The translations under genes and the position numbers were made by a program. The notes beneath the pieces are model-generated. The model was given only the letters and a program-made list of their open reading frames with translations, was not told the DNA's origin and did not search any database. 64,000 bases of DNA from the NCBI RefSeq assembly GCF_030406905.1, contig NZ_CP129137.1:5414001-5478000 (forward strand). The letters are read 5' to 3'. Within the stretch, counting starts at the first letter, position 1. The number at the start of each line of letters is the position of its first letter. This stretch comes from Streptomyces sp. HUAS CB01 (GTDB taxonomy: Bacteria > Actinomycetota > Actinomycetes > Streptomycetales > Streptomycetaceae). Positions 8,778 through 64,000 of the stretch are shown here, in pieces.

Positions 8778-9415
8778 CAGACGTCACCTCCGACGGTGTT
8801 CCGCTCGCTGGGCTGCACGTACACGAGCCCGTCGCCCTCGAACCGGATCTGGAAGGCCTCGCCGCCGCCCTCGCCCATGAGCGTCCGGAAGGTCACCCCG
8901 GACTGGAACTGCTGCTGGAGATTGCCCTGGTGCGCCACGTAGGCGCCCGGGTCGACGGAGAGCGGGTACTGGGGCGTCACACGCAGCACCACCGCCGGCC
9001 CGTCCGACATGATCGCGGCCTGGCCCGTGCCCTCCACCGTCGTGGTGAACAGCCCGTTGCCCGTCGCGCCGCCACGCATTCCGGTGAAACTCGTGCCGGT
9101 GCGCAGCCCGCCGTCGGTGCAGAGGAGATTGCTCGACTCGACGTAGAGCTTGTCGCCGTGCAGCGAGACGAGATTGATCTCGGAGGCGCGGTCGGCGAAA
9201 TAGCAGGTGCCCTGGCCCTTCACCTCCATCAGGGTCATCTGCTCGCCGGTGAGGCGGCGGGTCACCATGCCGCGCAGACCCTCACCGCCGCCGGAGAGTT
9301 TCTTGAAGTCCATGTGACCGTCGTACGCGACCATGGACCCGTTCTTCGCCTTGACGGAGTCCCCGGTCATGTCGACGGCGAGCACTTTGCTGCCTTGAAG
9401 TCGGAACATTGCCAC
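8777..9415 (-). CDS. AIM24-family protein, first gene of a tandem set
   Basis: 212 residues, [20 protein letters not shown] start, with the same strand pattern as its neighbours ([26 protein letters not shown]). It is the first gene of the AIM24 operon, so its promoter must lie in 9416-9589, shared divergently with the DUF3817 gene. The three paralogues are clearly diverged from each other, so this is an old duplication and not a recent one. Confidence 0.88.
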
Positions 9416-57029: not shown

Positions 57030-58805
57030 TCACACGCCCTTGGGCGCCGGGGCCTTGCGCGCGGCGCCGTTGGCGGCGGTCTCGGCGGGCACCGGCTCCT
57101 TGCGCAGCCGGAACCAGTAGAAGCCGTGCCCGGCCAGGGTCAGCAGGTACGGCCACTCGCCGATCGCGGGGAAGCGGACACCGCCGATCAGCTCCACCGG
57201 ATGCCGGCCGTTGTACCGGCGCAGGTCCAGCTCCGTCGGCTGGGCGAACCGGGAGAAGTTGTTCACGCACAGCACCAGGTCGTCCGAGCCGTCGTCGGTC
57301 GCCGGCGCCTCGCGCAGGTACGCCAGCACGGCCGGGTTCGACGAGGGGAGTTCGGTGAAGGTGCCGAGGCCGAAGGCCCGGTTCTGCTTTCTGATCTCGA
57401 TCATCCGCCGGGTCCAGTGCAGCAGCGACGAGGGGGACGCCATGGACGCCTCGACATTGGTGACCTGGTAGCCGTAGACGGGGTCCATGATGGTCGGCAG
57501 ATAGAGCCGGCCGGGATCGCAGGACGAGAAACCGGCGTTGCGGTCCGGCGTCCACTGCATCGGGGTGCGCACCGCGTCGCGGTCGCCCAGCCAGATGTTG
57601 TCGCCCATCCCGATCTCGTCGCCGTAGTAGAGGATCGGGGAGCCGGGCAGGGACAGCAGCAGCGCGGTGAACAGCTCGATCTGGTTGCGGTCGTTGTCGA
57701 GCAGCGGGGCCAGTCGGCGACGGATGCCGATGTTCGCCCGCATCCGCGGGTCCTTGGCGTACTCGGCGTACATGTAGTCGCGCTCCTCGTCGGTGACCAT
57801 CTCCAGGGTCAGCTCGTCGTGGTTGCGCAGGAAGATGCCCCACTGGCAGTTCTTGGGGATCTCCGGGGTCTTGGCCAGGATCTCGGAGACCGGGTAGCGG
57901 GACTCCCGCCGCACCGCCATGAAGATGCGGGGCATCACGGGGAAGTGGAAGGCCATGTGGCACTCGTCGCCGCCCGACGGGTAGTCGCCGAAGTAGTCGA
58001 CGACGTCCTCGGGCCACTGGTTGGCCTCGGCCAGCAGCACCGTGTCCGGGTAGTGGGCGTCGATCTCCCGGCGGACCCGCCTGAGGAAGGAGTGGGTGGC
58101 CGGGAGGTTCTCGCAGTTGGTGCCCTCCTCCTGGTACAGGTACGGCACGGCGTCCAGCCGGAAGCCGTCGATGCCGAGGTCCAGCCAGAAGCGCAGCGCG
58201 GAGATGATCTCCTCCTGCACTGCCGGGTTCTCGTAGTTGAGGTCCGGCTGGTGTGAGAAGAAGCGGTGCCAGTAGTACTGCTTGCGGACCGGGTCGAACG
58301 TCCAGTTGGAGGTCTCCGTGTCGACGAAGATGATCCGGGCGTCCTGGAACTGCTTGTCGTCGTCGGCCCAGACGTAGTAGTCGCCGTACGGCCCGTCCGG
58401 GTTGCTGCGGGACTCCTGGAACCACGGGTGCTGGTCGCTCGTGTGGTTCATGACGAAGTCGATGATGACCCGCATCCCGCGCTGGTGCGAGGCGTCGACG
58501 AACTCGACGAAGTCGGCCAGGTCGCCGAACTCCGGAAGCACCGAGGTGTAGTCCGCGACGTCGTAACCGCCGTCGCGCAGCGGGGACTTGAAGAACGGCG
58601 GCAGCCACAGGCAGTCGACGCCCAGCCACTGCAGATAGTCCAGTTTGGCGGTGAGGCCCTTGAGGTCGCCGATGCCGTCGCCGTTGCTGTCCTGGAAGGT
58701 GCGGACGAGGACCTCGTAGAACACGGCGCGTTTGAACCAGTCGGGGTCACGGTCCTTGGCGGGGGTGTCCTCGAAGGTGTCGTGGACGGGCTCGTTGACG
58801 ATCAT
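57030..58805 (-). CDS. treS: Trehalose synthase (maltose-forming trehalose isomerase, GH13)
   Basis: 591 residues. Interconverts trehalose and maltose. GH13 motifs: [24 protein letters not shown] with nucleophile Asp218, [11 protein letters not shown] with Glu260, [13 protein letters not shown]. The [30 protein letters not shown]-terminus is typical. It lacks a fused maltokinase, which is the next gene. ATGA overlap with glgE. The C-terminal tail ([18 protein letters not shown]) is short and Ala/Lys-rich. Confidence 0.95.
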
Positions 58806-60907
58806 GATGTGGGTGACCCTCCGGTCGGCGGGGACGGTCGCAGGACGACGATGTGCGCAGGCGTGACGCCCGGCTCGAGGCGCACATAGTTGGCCCTGCC
58901 CCAGTGATAGGTCTCGCCGGTGAGCTCGTCGCGCACCGGTACGGTCTCGTGCCGTTCGAGGCCGAGCTCCGGCATGTCAAACGAGACCGTCGCCTCCTGG
59001 GTGTGGTGGGGGTCGAGATTGACGACCACCAGAACGGTGTTCGAACCCGTTCGCTTGCTGTAGACGATCACGGCGTCGTTGTCGGCGTGATGGAAGCGGA
59101 GGTTCCGCAGCTGCTGCAGTGCCGGATGGCGGCGCCTGACGCGGTTGAGCGTGGTGATCAGCGGGGCGATGCTGCGCCCCTCCCGCTCGGCCGACTCCCA
59201 GTCGCGGGGCCGCAGTTCGTACTTCTCCGAGTCCAGGTACTCCTCGCTGCCGGGCCGCAGCGGGGTGTTCTCGCACAGCTCGTACCCCGCGTACATCCCC
59301 CAGGTGGGCGAGAGGGTCGCCGCGAGCACCGCGCGCACCTCGAACGCCGGCCGGCCGCCCTCCTGGAGGTACGCGTGGAGGATGTCCGGGGTGTTCACGA
59401 AGAAGTTGGGCCGCATGCAGGCGGCGGCCTCGCCCGACAGCTCCGTCAGGTACTCGGTCAGCTCCTGCTTGGTGTTGCGCCACGTGAAGTACGTGTACGA
59501 CTGCTGGAAGCCGATCGCGCCGAGCGTGCGCATCATCGCCGGGCGGGTGAAGGCCTCCGCGAGGAAGATCACGTCCGGGTCGGTCCGGTTGATCTCGCCG
59601 ATGACCTTCTCCCAGAACACCACGGGTTTGGTGTGGGGATTGTCGACACGGAAGATCCGCACCCCGTGCGCCATCCAGTGGCGCAGCACCCGCACCGTCT
59701 CCTTGACCAGACCCTTCATGTCGCGGTCGAAGGCGATGGGATAGATGTCCTGGTACTTCTTCGGCGGGTTCTCCGCGTAGGCGATGCTGCCGTCCGCCCG
59801 GTGGTGGAACCACTCGGGGTGCTCGGTCACCCACGGGTGGTCGGGCGAGCACTGCAGGGCGAAGTCCAGGGCGACCTCCATCCGCAGGTCCCGGGCGCAA
59901 CGCACGAACGCGTCGAAGTCCTCCAGCGTGCCGAGGTCGGGGTGGACCGCGTCGTGGCCGCCCTCGGCCGAGCCGATCGCCCAGGGCACCCCGACGTCGT
60001 GCCGGCCGGCCTCGAGCGTGTTGTTCGGGCCCTTGCGGAAGGTGCTGCCGATGGGGTGGACCGGTGGCAGGTACACCACGTCGAAGCCCATCGCGGCGAC
60101 GGCCGGCAGCCGCTGCGCCGCCGTCCGGAACGTGCCGGAGACGAGTCTGCCGCCCGTGACCCGGGCACCCTCGGAGCGCGGGAAGAACTCGTACCAGGAG
60201 CCGAACAGCGCTCGGGTGCGCTCCACCTGGAGCGGCAACGGGGGCGAGGCGGTGACCAGTTCGCGCAGCGGATGGCGGGCGAGCGCCGCGAGCGCGTCCG
60301 GGGCGAGCGCGGCCTCCAGCCGTTCGCGGTCCGGCCGGTCCTTGTCGCGCAGGCCGTCGGCGGCGGCGAGCACGGCCTCCCGGCCCGCCTTCTTGGGGAC
60401 GCCCGCGGCGGCGCGCTCGTGGAGCTCCGCGCCCTCGGCGAGGACCAGGTCCGTGTCGATCCCGGCCGGGATCTTGATGCCGGCGTGGTGCCGCCAGGTG
60501 GCCAGCGGATCGCTCCACGCCTCGACGCTGTAGGTCCACCGTCCCTCGGCGTCCGGGGTGACCTCGGCGCCCCAGCGGTCGGTTCCCGGCGCGAGTTCGC
60601 GCATCGGGGTCCAGGGGCCGGGCCGGCCCCCGGGATCCCGCAGGACGACATTGGCGGCCACCGCGTCGTGCCCTTCGCGGAACACGGTGGCGGTGATCTG
60701 GAACGTTTCGCCGACGGTCGATTTCGCGGGCCTTCGGCCGCAGTCGACGAGGGGGCGTACGTCCAGCACGGGAATGCGGCCAATCAGCGGGTTCACGGCA
60801 TCACCTGGGGGCTGTGCGGGCTCGGCGGGTCGAACGGGCGGTCCCTCTTCACGGGGGGCGGGTGTTCTTTGTAGCTGCTCCGTTGACGACTGACGGGCTG
60901 CGGGCAT
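58802..60907 (-). CDS. glgE: Alpha-1,4-glucan:maltose-1-phosphate maltosyltransferase
   Basis: 701 residues. Extends alpha-glucan using maltose 1-phosphate. Catalytic residues align with those known for S. coelicolor GlgE1 at an offset of 28: nucleophile Asp422 ([10 protein letters not shown]) and acid/base Glu451 (FLAEAFTRP). Also [21 protein letters not shown] and the C-terminal [18 protein letters not shown]. The start MPAARQSST is used because the homologous protein begins in the same way. First gene of glgE-treS-mak-glgB. Confidence 0.95.
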
Positions 60908-61465
60908 GGCCGCTCCTGTCCGCGTTCACTCGAATGGAAGGGTCGCGAGTGCGTTCCGGTGCGTACCGGGGGAGCCTTCCCACGCGCTTCGGGTCGGCAA
61001 TCCGGTGGTGCGTTAACTACTAGGGCGTAGGTTGCGGCACAAGGCCGCGGCCGTCCGGGGGCCGGGCGCGGCCGCATCCGGAACCGTTCCGGTCCTGCGG
61101 GGAGCGGCCGTCATGAACATTTGAAGTCAACTTCGGTCATCTTCTTACCGTGTTGAGTTCGCTAATTCCTGATTACTCATACAGAATCGATCGCCTGCGA
61201 TTCTTTTTGGCCAATCGCTGAGGTCGCCGGAATGATCGCGGAACGCGGCGGCCGACTTTTGTTGAAAGGTTGCGAAAAAAGCTGCGTTCCCCTCCACGGG
61301 ATGATTACTGTGAAGCCTCATCCGGAGTGGGGACTCCGGGTTCCGACGATCAGTCATGCGTGCATCCTCACCTGGGCACATCCATGCCTGCATCACGTTC
61401 GAAAAGCCGCGACGGCCGGCCGTGCCCAGCGCACTCGGCGCGATCGCATCGGGGGGTGGGGGACA
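60908..61465. other. 558-base divergent region with AT-rich segment and terminator-like hairpin
   Basis: It holds the glgE promoter side (60908-61040) and, at 61110-61290, a clearly AT-richer stretch. Within that, gaagt-ca-acttc (61123-61134) is a small palindrome, and agaatcg-atcgcctg-cgattct followed by five T (61183-61208) is a canonical intrinsic terminator on the plus strand. The latter is unusual here, since no gene ends upstream on that strand; an attenuator or a short RNA is possible. No protein-coding gene is seen. Confidence 0.6.
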
Positions 61466-63358
61466 ATGCACCCGGACCATGCGGGAATCGGCATCGAGGA
61501 CGATCTTCGAGCCGCGCTCCGCGCCGTGGACGTCATGGAAGGCGGACCCGCAGCGCGCGCCGACCGCCCGCCCGCCGGGGCGGACCCGGCCGCGGCACCG
61601 GACCACCGCCGGGCGGCCCGTCTGATACCCGGCACCGGCACCCCTCCCGACCCCCACGCATGGAAGCGGGCCTGGCGCGACGTCCTCGCCCGGGAGAGCG
61701 CCCGCACCACCCGCTCGGGACTGGGCTGGGCGCTCACCTCCCTCGCCTGCGGGCGGTTCGCCGCACTGGACGTCCTCGAGATCGGCTGCGAGCGGCTGCG
61801 CCTGAGCCGGCTGGCCTACGGCGGCGACGGCCACGCCCCCGAGGCCCGGCCGCTCGCCGACTCCGCCTGGGGCGAGTTCACGGACGGCACCGACGGCACC
61901 GACGGCCGGCCCGGCCCCCCGGCGCTCCCCGCCGAGCGGCTGCGGCGGCTCTTCGTCCTCGCCGGAGGAACCGGCCCCGCCGCCGCGGACGTCACGGATC
62001 CGCTCACCCGGGCGCTGCACACCTTCGTGCGCGGGACCCCGCTCGGCACGGCCCCGCTCCTGGTCGTCGTCCGGGCCGCCGGCTGGCGGCCCGTCGAGCA
62101 GGCGGCCGACACCCTGCGCCCGGAAACCGCCGCGGTCCTCCGGCTGCGACTGCCCGCGCACTGGCCCGGGCACCCCGGCGACCTGATCGACGCCCTCCCG
62201 CTGCGCCACGCCATCTGGCTGGCCGCGGCCGACATCGACGGAACCTCGGGCACGGTCGGACTCGTGCGGCGCCCGCTCTTCCCGGCCGGCAGCCGTAGCG
62301 GCGAGCCGGCCGGCGGCGAACCCGGGGCCGTCGTACGGGTACCCGTGGCCGCGCCGCCGCACGGTGCCACCACGGGGGAGAGCGCCGCCGTCGTCGTCTC
62401 CGCGGGCCCCGGCGAACCGCCCTCGCGATGGCGCCCCGTGCGGGCCGACCGCCTCGAACTCCCGCCGGGCTCCCGCGCGGCGCTCCACTACCGGCTGCGC
62501 GGTCCTGACCGGGTGGACCTCGCCTACGACGGACACCACGAACCGGAGACCGCGCCCTGGACGGCCCTGGCGCACACCACGCCCCGGCGGCTCTCCCGGC
62601 CGCGGCCCGTGGACCTCGTGCTCGCCGTGGAGGTCGCCGGTCCGCAGGCGGGCGGCGGCACGGCCGTCGAGGAGCGCCTGCAGGAGGCGGCCGCCGTCGT
62701 CGCCGCCGTACGGCACGCCGTCGGCGGCGACGACACGCTCCGCGTCGGGCTCATCGGCTACCGCGACCACGCCCCCCTCGACCGCCCGCACCACAGCGAC
62801 CCCATCGTGCACCGGCTCGGCATGGCGACCGCGCAGGCCGCCGAACGCGCACTGACGGGCTGGCACCACAGCCCGCTGCGGCACGACTTCGCCACCGGAC
62901 TGGAGCACGTGCCCCACGAACTCGCCGCCCGCCGCCATCTGTGGCGGCCGGACAGCCACCGGGTGCTCCTCGTGATCGGCTCCCGCCCTCCCCATCCGCG
63001 CGCCGCTCCGCCGCAGGTGCTGCGGCGCAGCGCGGCGGTGCGGATCTGCCCCGACCGGGTCGAGTGGGAGGCCGCGCTCGACGAGCTGCGCCACTACGAC
63101 GGCGTCGCCTGCGTGGCGGTCGTGGACGAGCCCGCGTGGATGGACCACCTGGAGGGGGAACCCCATCTCGCACGCTGGGCGGACCGCGCGTGGGACCTCT
63201 TCGGCGCCGACGGCCGGTTCACCGCCGGCCACGATCCGCGCCGCGTCGCCTCCGCCGTGACGGCACCGGCGCTCTGCCTCCCCGAGGACGGCGCCCCCAT
63301 CCGGCTCGTCGTCCCCGACGGCGCGAGCGGGGAGTGGCTGCACGAGGCCGCCGGCTGA
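61466..63358 (+). CDS. Large protein with a degenerate vWA-like domain (possible conflict-system component)
   Basis: 630 residues from ATG 61466 (GGGGG region upstream; longer in-frame starts exist back to 61232 but cross the AT-rich region). I do not recognise the N-terminal 370 residues, which are Ala/Arg/Gly-rich with several predicted strands. Residues about 380-620 read like a von Willebrand A fold: PVDLVLAVEVAG where the metal-site DxSxS should be, LRVGLIGYRDH, HDFATGLEHVPHELAARR, HRVLLVIGSRPPHP. The metal-binding residues are mostly missing. No signal peptide or membrane segment. It is followed on the same strand by a P-loop protein. Confidence 0.65.
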   Translation: MHPDHAGIGIEDDLRAALRAVDVMEGGPAARADRPPAGADPAAAPDHRRAARLIPGTGTPPDPHAWKRAWRDVLARESARTTRSGLGWALTSLACGRFAALDVLEIGCERLRLSRLAYGGDGHAPEARPLADSAWGEFTDGTDGTDGRPGPPALPAERLRRLFVLAGGTGPAAADVTDPLTRALHTFVRGTPLGTAPLLVVVRAAGWRPVEQAADTLRPETAAVLRLRLPAHWPGHPGDLIDALPLRHAIWLAAADIDGTSGTVGLVRRPLFPAGSRSGEPAGGEPGAVVRVPVAAPPHGATTGESAAVVVSAGPGEPPSRWRPVRADRLELPPGSRAALHYRLRGPDRVDLAYDGHHEPETAPWTALAHTTPRRLSRPRPVDLVLAVEVAGPQAGGGTAVEERLQEAAAVVAAVRHAVGGDDTLRVGLIGYRDHAPLDRPHHSDPIVHRLGMATAQAAERALTGWHHSPLRHDFATGLEHVPHELAARRHLWRPDSHRVLLVIGSRPPHPRAAPPQVLRRSAAVRICPDRVEWEAALDELRHYDGVACVAVVDEPAWMDHLEGEPHLARWADRAWDLFGADGRFTAGHDPRRVASAVTAPALCLPEDGAPIRLVVPDGASGEWLHEAAG

Positions 63359-63459
63359 GGACCACGGCACACCAACCGTGCGCCCCGGAGGGCGTGCGGG
63401 TCCGGACAACGACCGTGCGGCGGACCTCACTCCGCCGCCACGACTGGGGGAGCCCCACC

Positions 63460-64000
63460 ATGCCCGAGGACGAAAAGCGCCCCGAAGGCACGCCGAAGGA
63501 CGCCAAGCAGGACCGCACCAGGGACGACCGGGCCGCGGAGGGGCCGTTCGCCGTGTGGGACCCGTCCACACTCGTCGGAGGCCGGGCAGCGCTGCCGCCG
63601 GTACCGGCCCCGCCACCGGCCCGGTCCGCACCGCCGAACGGCGCGTCACCCGGTGCCCCGGCCGCTCCCGCGCCCCCGGCGCCGCGCGAGGACACGGCAC
63701 GGGCCCCCGGGACACCGCCCGCGGACCCCGGCCGGCCGGCCGAGCCCCCGCCCGGCGGATTCGCGGAGAGGTTCGGCGGCCCCGAGGCCATCGACAAGTC
63801 CGCCAAACCCGCGAAACCGGACAAGCCCGCGAAACTCGCGCGGAAGGCGGCGGCCGCCGACAGGGCGGTCCCCCAGGACGAGGAACGCCAGGAGCCCGAG
63901 GCCCCGGCGTCGGCACCCGAGTCGACCATCACCCTCTGGGGCGGCATGGGCAGCGGGAAGTCCACACTGCTGGCGGCGCTGTCCCGCGCCGTGCAGGACC
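63460..64000 (+). CDS. P-loop NTPase with proline-rich N-terminus, partial (possible double-GTPase type)
   Basis: First 180 residues; runs off the right edge. Residues 1-155 are disordered and rich in Pro, Ala, Lys and Glu. At about 160 a strand and Walker A appear (ITLWGGMGSGKSTLLAALSRAVQD). This layout occurs in DO-GTPase proteins of actinobacterial NTP-dependent conflict systems, but with only the Walker A visible an ABC- or STAND-type NTPase cannot be excluded. ATG with GGGGGAG upstream, 101 bases after the vWA-like gene. Confidence 0.7.
   Translation, partial: MPEDEKRPEGTPKDAKQDRTRDDRAAEGPFAVWDPSTLVGGRAALPPVPAPPPARSAPPNGASPGAPAAPAPPAPREDTARAPGTPPADPGRPAEPPPGGFAERFGGPEAIDKSAKPAKPDKPAKLARKAAAADRAVPQDEERQEPEAPASAPESTITLWGGMGSGKSTLLAALSRAVQD

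Follow-up and report, generated by a model that had tools for sequence, protein, structure and literature searches.

Organisation of the locus

The locus lies at the end of a stretch of 64,000 nucleotides (the window; C1:5414001-5478000) in the 8.1-Mb genome of Streptomyces sp. HUAS CB01, and we read it on beyond the window end, where L007 coordinates plus 60499 give window coordinates. Five same-strand genes form a cassette of ~10 kb (Table 1), which encodes a protein with a C-terminal von Willebrand factor A-like fold (vWA1), a P-loop GTPase, a large GAP1-like protein, an extracytoplasmic vWA protein and a kinase. The original prediction, which saw only the first two of these genes in the window, was right in its account of the window end and in taking them for the first part of a larger locus next to glgE; three more follow, and then glgP. 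The AT-richer stretch that it noted separates the divergently read glgE and vWA1 genes, and within it positions 61065-61464 have a GC content of 0.595 and fall at the 0.16th percentile of the window's 400-bp stretches. The label glgE is taken from an earlier finding and from the neighbouring genes, with no family search behind the name.

Table 1. Features of the cassette and its flanks in window coordinates
Feature	Position	Strand	Description
glgE	58802..60907	-	ORF of 701 aa; divergent flank, outside the cassette
Divergent intergenic region	60908..61465		AT-richer; GC 0.62
vWA1	61466..63358	+	630 aa; unassigned N-terminal and beta-rich parts, C-terminal vWA fold
GTPase (P-loop, DO-GTPase2 relative)	63460..64000	+	Cut by the window end; extends to 64890; 476 aa
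GAP1-like	64926-67520	+	864 aa; beyond the window
Extracytoplasmic vWA	67773-69380	+	535 aa; beyond the window
Kinase with beta-propeller	69862-71832	+	Ser/Thr kinase, 656 aa; beyond the window
glgP	72081-74669	+	Beyond the window, after the kinase gene

None of the first three cassette proteins has a Pfam family above cut-off, and the database names listed for them are 'hypothetical' or generic (vWA domain-containing, ATP-binding, PE-PGRS). In PADLOC vWA1, the GAP1-like protein and the extracytoplasmic vWA were unmatched, while the GTPase gave marginal P-loop matches and the kinase gave kinase-domain matches. The original prediction would have been supported by an effector or a GAP1-like gene downstream; the GAP1-like gene is there, and no effector gene was recognised among the cassette's genes. 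Short GC-rich near-tandem repeats, seen by eye (L007:7022-7273 and 8882-9362), occur in the intergenic spaces that precede the extracytoplasmic vWA and kinase genes.

Distribution and genomic context

The GAP1-like protein is matched in 18 of 392 Streptomyces genomes, and in 11 of these, HUAS CB01 included, the match is full-length, with the five-gene order identical in all 11 loci. Only three of the 11 full cassettes occupy the glgE/glgP site, the other eight lying elsewhere; the genes are not conserved at this place throughout Streptomyces. Six of the remaining genomes hold distant loci (see below), and the last, G261, is counted only among the 18: its 45-residue match contains a stop, and no cassette protein occurs in its 20 kb. 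Four of the full cassettes (L052, L053, L055 and L056; Ns were stripped from L055 for script alignments) have an oxidoreductase-type gene on one side in common, read by eye with one Pfam-checked, and on the opposite side, at a greater distance, L052, L053 and L056 share by eye one CoA-ligase-type gene.

The mobile context at issue in the original prediction is found for other copies, none having been recognised next to the HUAS CB01 cassette. Two transposase-type genes lie in the flank of the L053 cassette, and all five genes occur in order on NZ_CP109366.1, a linear 678-kb plasmid of Streptomyces sp. NBC_01558, with proteins 58-75% identical to those of HUAS CB01. Of 72,556 plasmid records searched with the GTPase at E 1e-5, only this plasmid matched; it is typed non-mobilizable, and the neighbours of its cassette resemble by eye those of the chromosomal locus L051. 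No GTPase match was obtained in 50,697 phage records.

In a wider survey, the GAP1-like profile matches 22 of 296 genomes of the class, in 8 of 114 genera; the GAP1-N2 profile matches 31 genomes of apparently the same 296, in 12 of 114 genera, and the five genomes with both families carry them at separate places. A scan of named genomes listed at least 27 loci, at least two of them from genomes already counted, and in 22 of those listed the gene immediately before the GTPase is vWA1, with GAP1-like downstream of it in 23 and neither in L182, L191 and L202. The loci listed include ones from Actinomadura, Streptosporangium, Herbidospora, Microbispora and Lentzea, and one from Frankia with GAP1-like only. 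In two loci (L149:12543-15261 and L151:14111-16904) a gene for a hydrophobic-looking protein and a kinase gene lie divergent from the vWA1-GTPase-GAP1-like triad, and a kinase match at that place recurs in Herbidospora, Microbispora, Streptosporangium, Actinoallomurus and Actinomadura rayongensis loci. We conclude that the cassette is accessory, patchy and present at several genomic sites, that it apparently moves horizontally, and that it constitutes a concrete, unnamed cassette across several Actinomycete families.

The glgE-glgP interval (L080-L121) is itself a variable site in Streptomyces. Of 31 genomes, 28 gave a strong glgP match, and in 13 of these glgE is divergent from and adjacent to glgP, with an estimated gap of 0.34-1.21 kb and no separate gene called. 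The interval otherwise holds one subtilase-type gene (six genomes; two Pfam-checked, four by eye), a cassette of NmrA-like, HpaB, MFS and FAD-dependent genes (four; one Pfam-checked, three by eye), an MmyB-like regulator (one) or the present cassette (one, HUAS CB01). G025 has similar NmrA/HpaB/MFS/FAD genes without glgE in the 15 kb read, and contig edges end the interval in two genomes.

Distant forms and VMAP-joined relatives

The six distant Streptomyces loci retain vWA1, the GTPase, the GAP1-like protein and an extracytoplasmic vWA. Identities are about 26-36%, and for the GAP1-like protein the match spans the N-terminal part only. Three of them (L059, L060 and L062) additionally carry HSP70-like, radical-SAM and coiled-coil-type genes, and in L060 and L062, where the stretch reaches, there is an additional large gene (AAA+ in L062; in L060 by eye). 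Both the HSP70-like genes (E 7.8e-8) and the radical-SAM genes (E 1.7e-32) of this form have homologues in canonical GAP1-N2 loci; the coiled-coil-type genes were compared in the same way and gave no match (P 0.18). In the canonical loci L073 and L074 radical-SAM genes lie beside HSP70, GTPase and GAP1 genes, and the 'radical SAM' passage found in the available part of Kaur et al. 2020 (PMC7159879) is about ternary systems with FtsH.

A second GTPase, anticipated by the original prediction, is absent from the HUAS CB01 locus and present in two of these distant relatives, both joined to a VMAP system. In L061 and L064 (genomes G095 and G142) two GTPase and two GAP1-like genes are followed by an alpha/beta-hydrolase-type gene, a VMAP gene and an AAA+ gene. 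The VMAP proteins match VMAP-M18 (E 2.3e-35 and 3.6e-74) and carry a caspase domain, and the L061 AAA+ gene has, by eye, both N-terminal motifs that the accessible text of PMC7159879 gives for VMAP MoxR proteins. A further protein of L061/L064 has a DO-GTPase2-like C-terminus (E 7e-5, below cut-off) and an N-terminal part that is vWA-type by eye, with no Pfam VWA match. In the VMAP systems of G095 (L122:1334-7417) and G142 (L123:3265-9227) this vWA-type component with its DO-GTPase2-like C-terminus is succeeded by a short GAP1-like protein. The fusion is a possible new output module for ternary systems; the portions of PMC7159879 that we could draw on name AP-GTPase, and no other GTPase, as connected with the vWA component of VMAP systems. 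Together with its neighbourhood the fusion is the strongest pointer to conflict biology, and the joining of distant forms to a caspase-bearing VMAP system in G095 and G142 suggests a role against invaders.

The GTPase and the vWA proteins

The GTPase has a Pro/Ala-rich head. Profile-profile comparison of its family with DO-GTPase2 by hhalign gives E 1.4e-17 over 266 columns, and on this sequence evidence the GTPase is homologous to DO-GTPase2 and belongs within the DO-GTPase (TRAFAC) family relationship. The HUAS CB01 protein alone reaches only E 0.078, under the Pfam cut-off; at E up to 1, Pfam DO-GTPase2 gives a sub-threshold match to 13 of 19 members, the lowest E being 1.2e-5, and generic AAA_16 is matched in 12 of the 19. 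A housekeeping identity for this P-loop protein was rejected, no curated family scoring above its cut-off. Its Walker B motif reads DLPGE, with a Glu that may be the conserved one meant in PMC7159879. All 11 full cassettes, as well as L059, L060 and L062, have Glu after the Walker B Gly, and the same position is Gly or His in L061, L063 and L064.

The metal-site-poor vWA-like domain of the original prediction corresponds to the C-terminal vWA fold of vWA1 (residues 378-604; 62597-63277). Canonical MIDAS vWA domains have the metal-site motif DxSxS. By eye this is absent from vWA1, which has EVAGPQ at its place and GSRP after strand 4, and vWA1 gave no match in family profile searches (Pfam, PADLOC, NCBIfam). 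It matched neither the vWA-type protein of G095/G142 (P 0.087, 34 columns) nor, in six canonical loci, the protein encoded upstream of the GTPase. An HSP70-like domain was considered for its N-terminal part (residues 96-376), as DnaK ranked top in Foldseek for the vWA1 model (E 1.6e-7) with a TM of only 0.14; the ranking is without sequence support, since profile comparison with HSP70-like proteins of relatives and canonical loci gave P 0.19 or worse. The N-terminal part diverges faster than the GTPase core. In L052 (6711-7332) it appears out of frame relative to its relatives, and the presumed database counterpart is short too (412 aa); L052 was omitted from one vWA1 comparison because of this apparent frameshift, and was retained in the divergence table.

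The extracytoplasmic vWA matches Pfam VWA_2, has by eye a signal-peptide-like start and a DTSSS motif, and is predicted to have one membrane span near residue 410 and a cytosolic tail. The kinase matches Pfam Pkinase and PQQ-type repeats, with HRD and DFG motifs by eye, and its best NCBIfam match is AfsK at 185.4 bits, under the cut-off of 1300. The kinase also gave a sub-threshold TCAD9 match (E 3e-5), which spans residues 129-171 only and was set aside.

The GAP1-like protein

The GAP1-like gene directly follows the P-loop gene, where such a gene had been expected. Its relationship to canonical GAP1 is suggestive, on sequence grounds, for the N+M part. The GAP1-N2 profile (PF20013) has no match in the HUAS CB01 genome; GAP1-M is marginal in 3 of 19 GAP1-like proteins (best 0.026) and in 7 of the 24 proteins of set A7, 12 of which are GAP1-like (best 0.017). 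Colinear hhalign alignments of the N+M part with canonical GAP1 gave P 0.0011 and 0.007, and a further run gave 0.00059 and 0.0084 in the two directions, against 0.092 or worse for ten decoy pairs and 0.25-0.26 for reversed alignments; of 150 block permutations one scored above the observed alignment (32.1 vs 27.3 in the same direction). The C-terminal parts do not match (hhalign P 0.52), and the alpha-solenoid of the GAP1-like protein diverges faster than the GTPase core.

Structurally, TagF is the top match of the N-terminal part in VIA-align and is among the best by probability in Foldseek. Sequence searches against solved structures gave no match for this N-terminal part, one irrelevant match for canonical GAP1 (E 0.25) and six for the full-length GAP1-like profile (E 0.02 or worse; five are named as designed proteins or binders, the sixth as 'three helix bundle'). 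The viral fold library gave no match at E 0.001, and no sequence similarity to the DENN module was found. We tentatively raise a bolder reading, which we doubt more than we trust: GAP1-like proteins, and perhaps by colinearity the whole GAP1 family, may be putative bacterial longin-DENN exchange factors or regulators of DO-type GTPases, and a vWA-GTPase-DENN triad may form a third core type, beside MoxR-vWA-VMAP and GTPase-GAP1, that can plug into VMAP systems as an output module. If so, bacteria would possess the tripartite DENN architecture, within mobile conflict systems and with a GTPase of its own as partner, and one could test there how a family of eukaryotic exchange factors arose.

Proposed function

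What role does such a cassette play? We lean, with somewhat more confidence than doubt, towards a conflict-type, NTP-dependent signalling cassette that is accessory in Actinomycetes and apparently moves horizontally, a new form of GTPase-centric systems. In favour are the constant five-gene order, the patchy presence with a plasmid copy, the triad in other families, the DO-GTPase2 homology, the VMAP-joined relatives and the HSP70-like and radical-SAM homologues; counting against it are the want of a recognised effector gene, the sparse PADLOC and absent phage matches, the silent GAP1-N2 profile, the AfsK-type kinase match, the Gly or His near Walker B in three members and the non-mobilizable typing of the plasmid. 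The GTPase/GAP1-like core and the patchy distribution agree with the NTP-dependent conflict system originally predicted. The extracytoplasmic vWA would sense an envelope or ligand event and the kinase would relay it by phosphorylation, its beta-propeller serving as a docking part. The GTPase and its dedicated GAP1-like partner would form the core switch, with the longin/DENN-like N-terminal part binding the GTPase and setting its nucleotide state, and the faster-diverging solenoid recognising a trigger or client. Cytosolic vWA1 may hold peptides and serve as the adaptor between the switch and a client or effector. For simple forms like the present cassette, the effector may be encoded elsewhere, or the assembly itself may be the effector.

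It is rather unlikely that the cassette serves developmental or envelope signalling instead, the vWA sensing wall or surface and an AfsK-like kinase and the GTPase relaying to growth, branching and metabolism with no anti-invader role. The best kinase match, far below cut-off as it is, the singly membrane-spanning extracytoplasmic vWA and the want of a recognised effector gene would all suit such a role, but the few Streptomyces genomes with GAP1-like matches, the plasmid copy, the VMAP-caspase linkage of distant forms in two genomes, and the faster divergence of solenoid and vWA1 N-terminal part relative to the GTPase core argue against it.

We think it unlikely, too, that the cassette is a diverged member of the described GAP1-N2/DO-GTPase2 class, with its actinobacterial kinase-PP2C-vWA theme, that Pfam has missed. 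The C-terminal parts are unmatched, one of 150 block permutations beat the N+M alignment, both families occupy separate places in five genomes, and vWA1 has no profile match to the protein upstream of the canonical GTPase. Moreover, none of the five proteins matches fn3 (FNIII) at E 0.1, PP2C and zinc-ribbon are unmatched in the HUAS CB01 cassette, and PF20013 is silent in that genome. In favour of membership stand the DO-GTPase2 homology, the shared kinase, vWA and partner gene positions, the marginal GAP1-M matches and the colinear N+M alignment itself.

It is improbable that the cassette regulates secretion or injection in the way that the TagF-PpkA-PppA threonine-phosphorylation pathway acts on type VI secretion: a kinase and an extracytoplasmic vWA beside a TagF-like part parallel PpkA, but reading by eye near the cassettes (in part for L057 and L058) recognised no secretion or contractile-injection gene, and to our knowledge no GTPase is part of that pathway. 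A regulator of the GlgE glucan pathway, kept for that reason between divergent glgE and glgP in three genomes, is scarcely credible and is rejected on cassette placement, with 8 of the 11 full cassettes elsewhere and glgE-glgP adjacent without a called gene, or separated by unrelated genes, in other genomes.

Comparison with known systems

The locus is close to the GAP1-N2/DO-GTPase2 systems (Kaur et al. 2020, PMC7159879), in which a related GTPase gene is likewise followed at once by a large partner gene, with kinase and vWA genes in the neighbourhood; one form of the present family also has HSP70-like and radical-SAM homologues. It differs in its silent GAP1-N2 profile, in the Pro/Ala-rich GTPase head and in the degenerate-vWA protein that recurs as a third core partner. 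Because FNIII is unmatched and the GAP1 evidence is ambiguous, membership is not claimed; single cassette members may already be within the supplementary locus list of PMC7159879. The MoxR-vWA-VMAP ternary systems of the same paper likewise have a vWA component, and the G095/G142 form is physically joined to one; in contrast, the glgE-glgP interval here consists of five cassette genes, none matching MoxR or VMAP (L007 genes outside it were read by eye only).

Unlike the DENN module of longin-DENN-dDENN Rab exchange factors (PMC3521125), the GAP1-like protein is bacterial and a long alpha-solenoid follows. The kinase resembles the Ser/Thr kinase AfsK in joining a kinase domain to PQQ-type repeats, but lies far under the AfsK cut-off (185 vs 1300 bits). 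TagF, a type VI secretion repressor, is much shorter (matched chain 324 aa, compared with 864), and we know of no GTPase partner for it. The cassette brings together three subjects that have been described apart: the conflict systems centred on GTPases, the MoxR-vWA-VMAP systems and, as a putative link, a GTPase partner of longin/DENN type.
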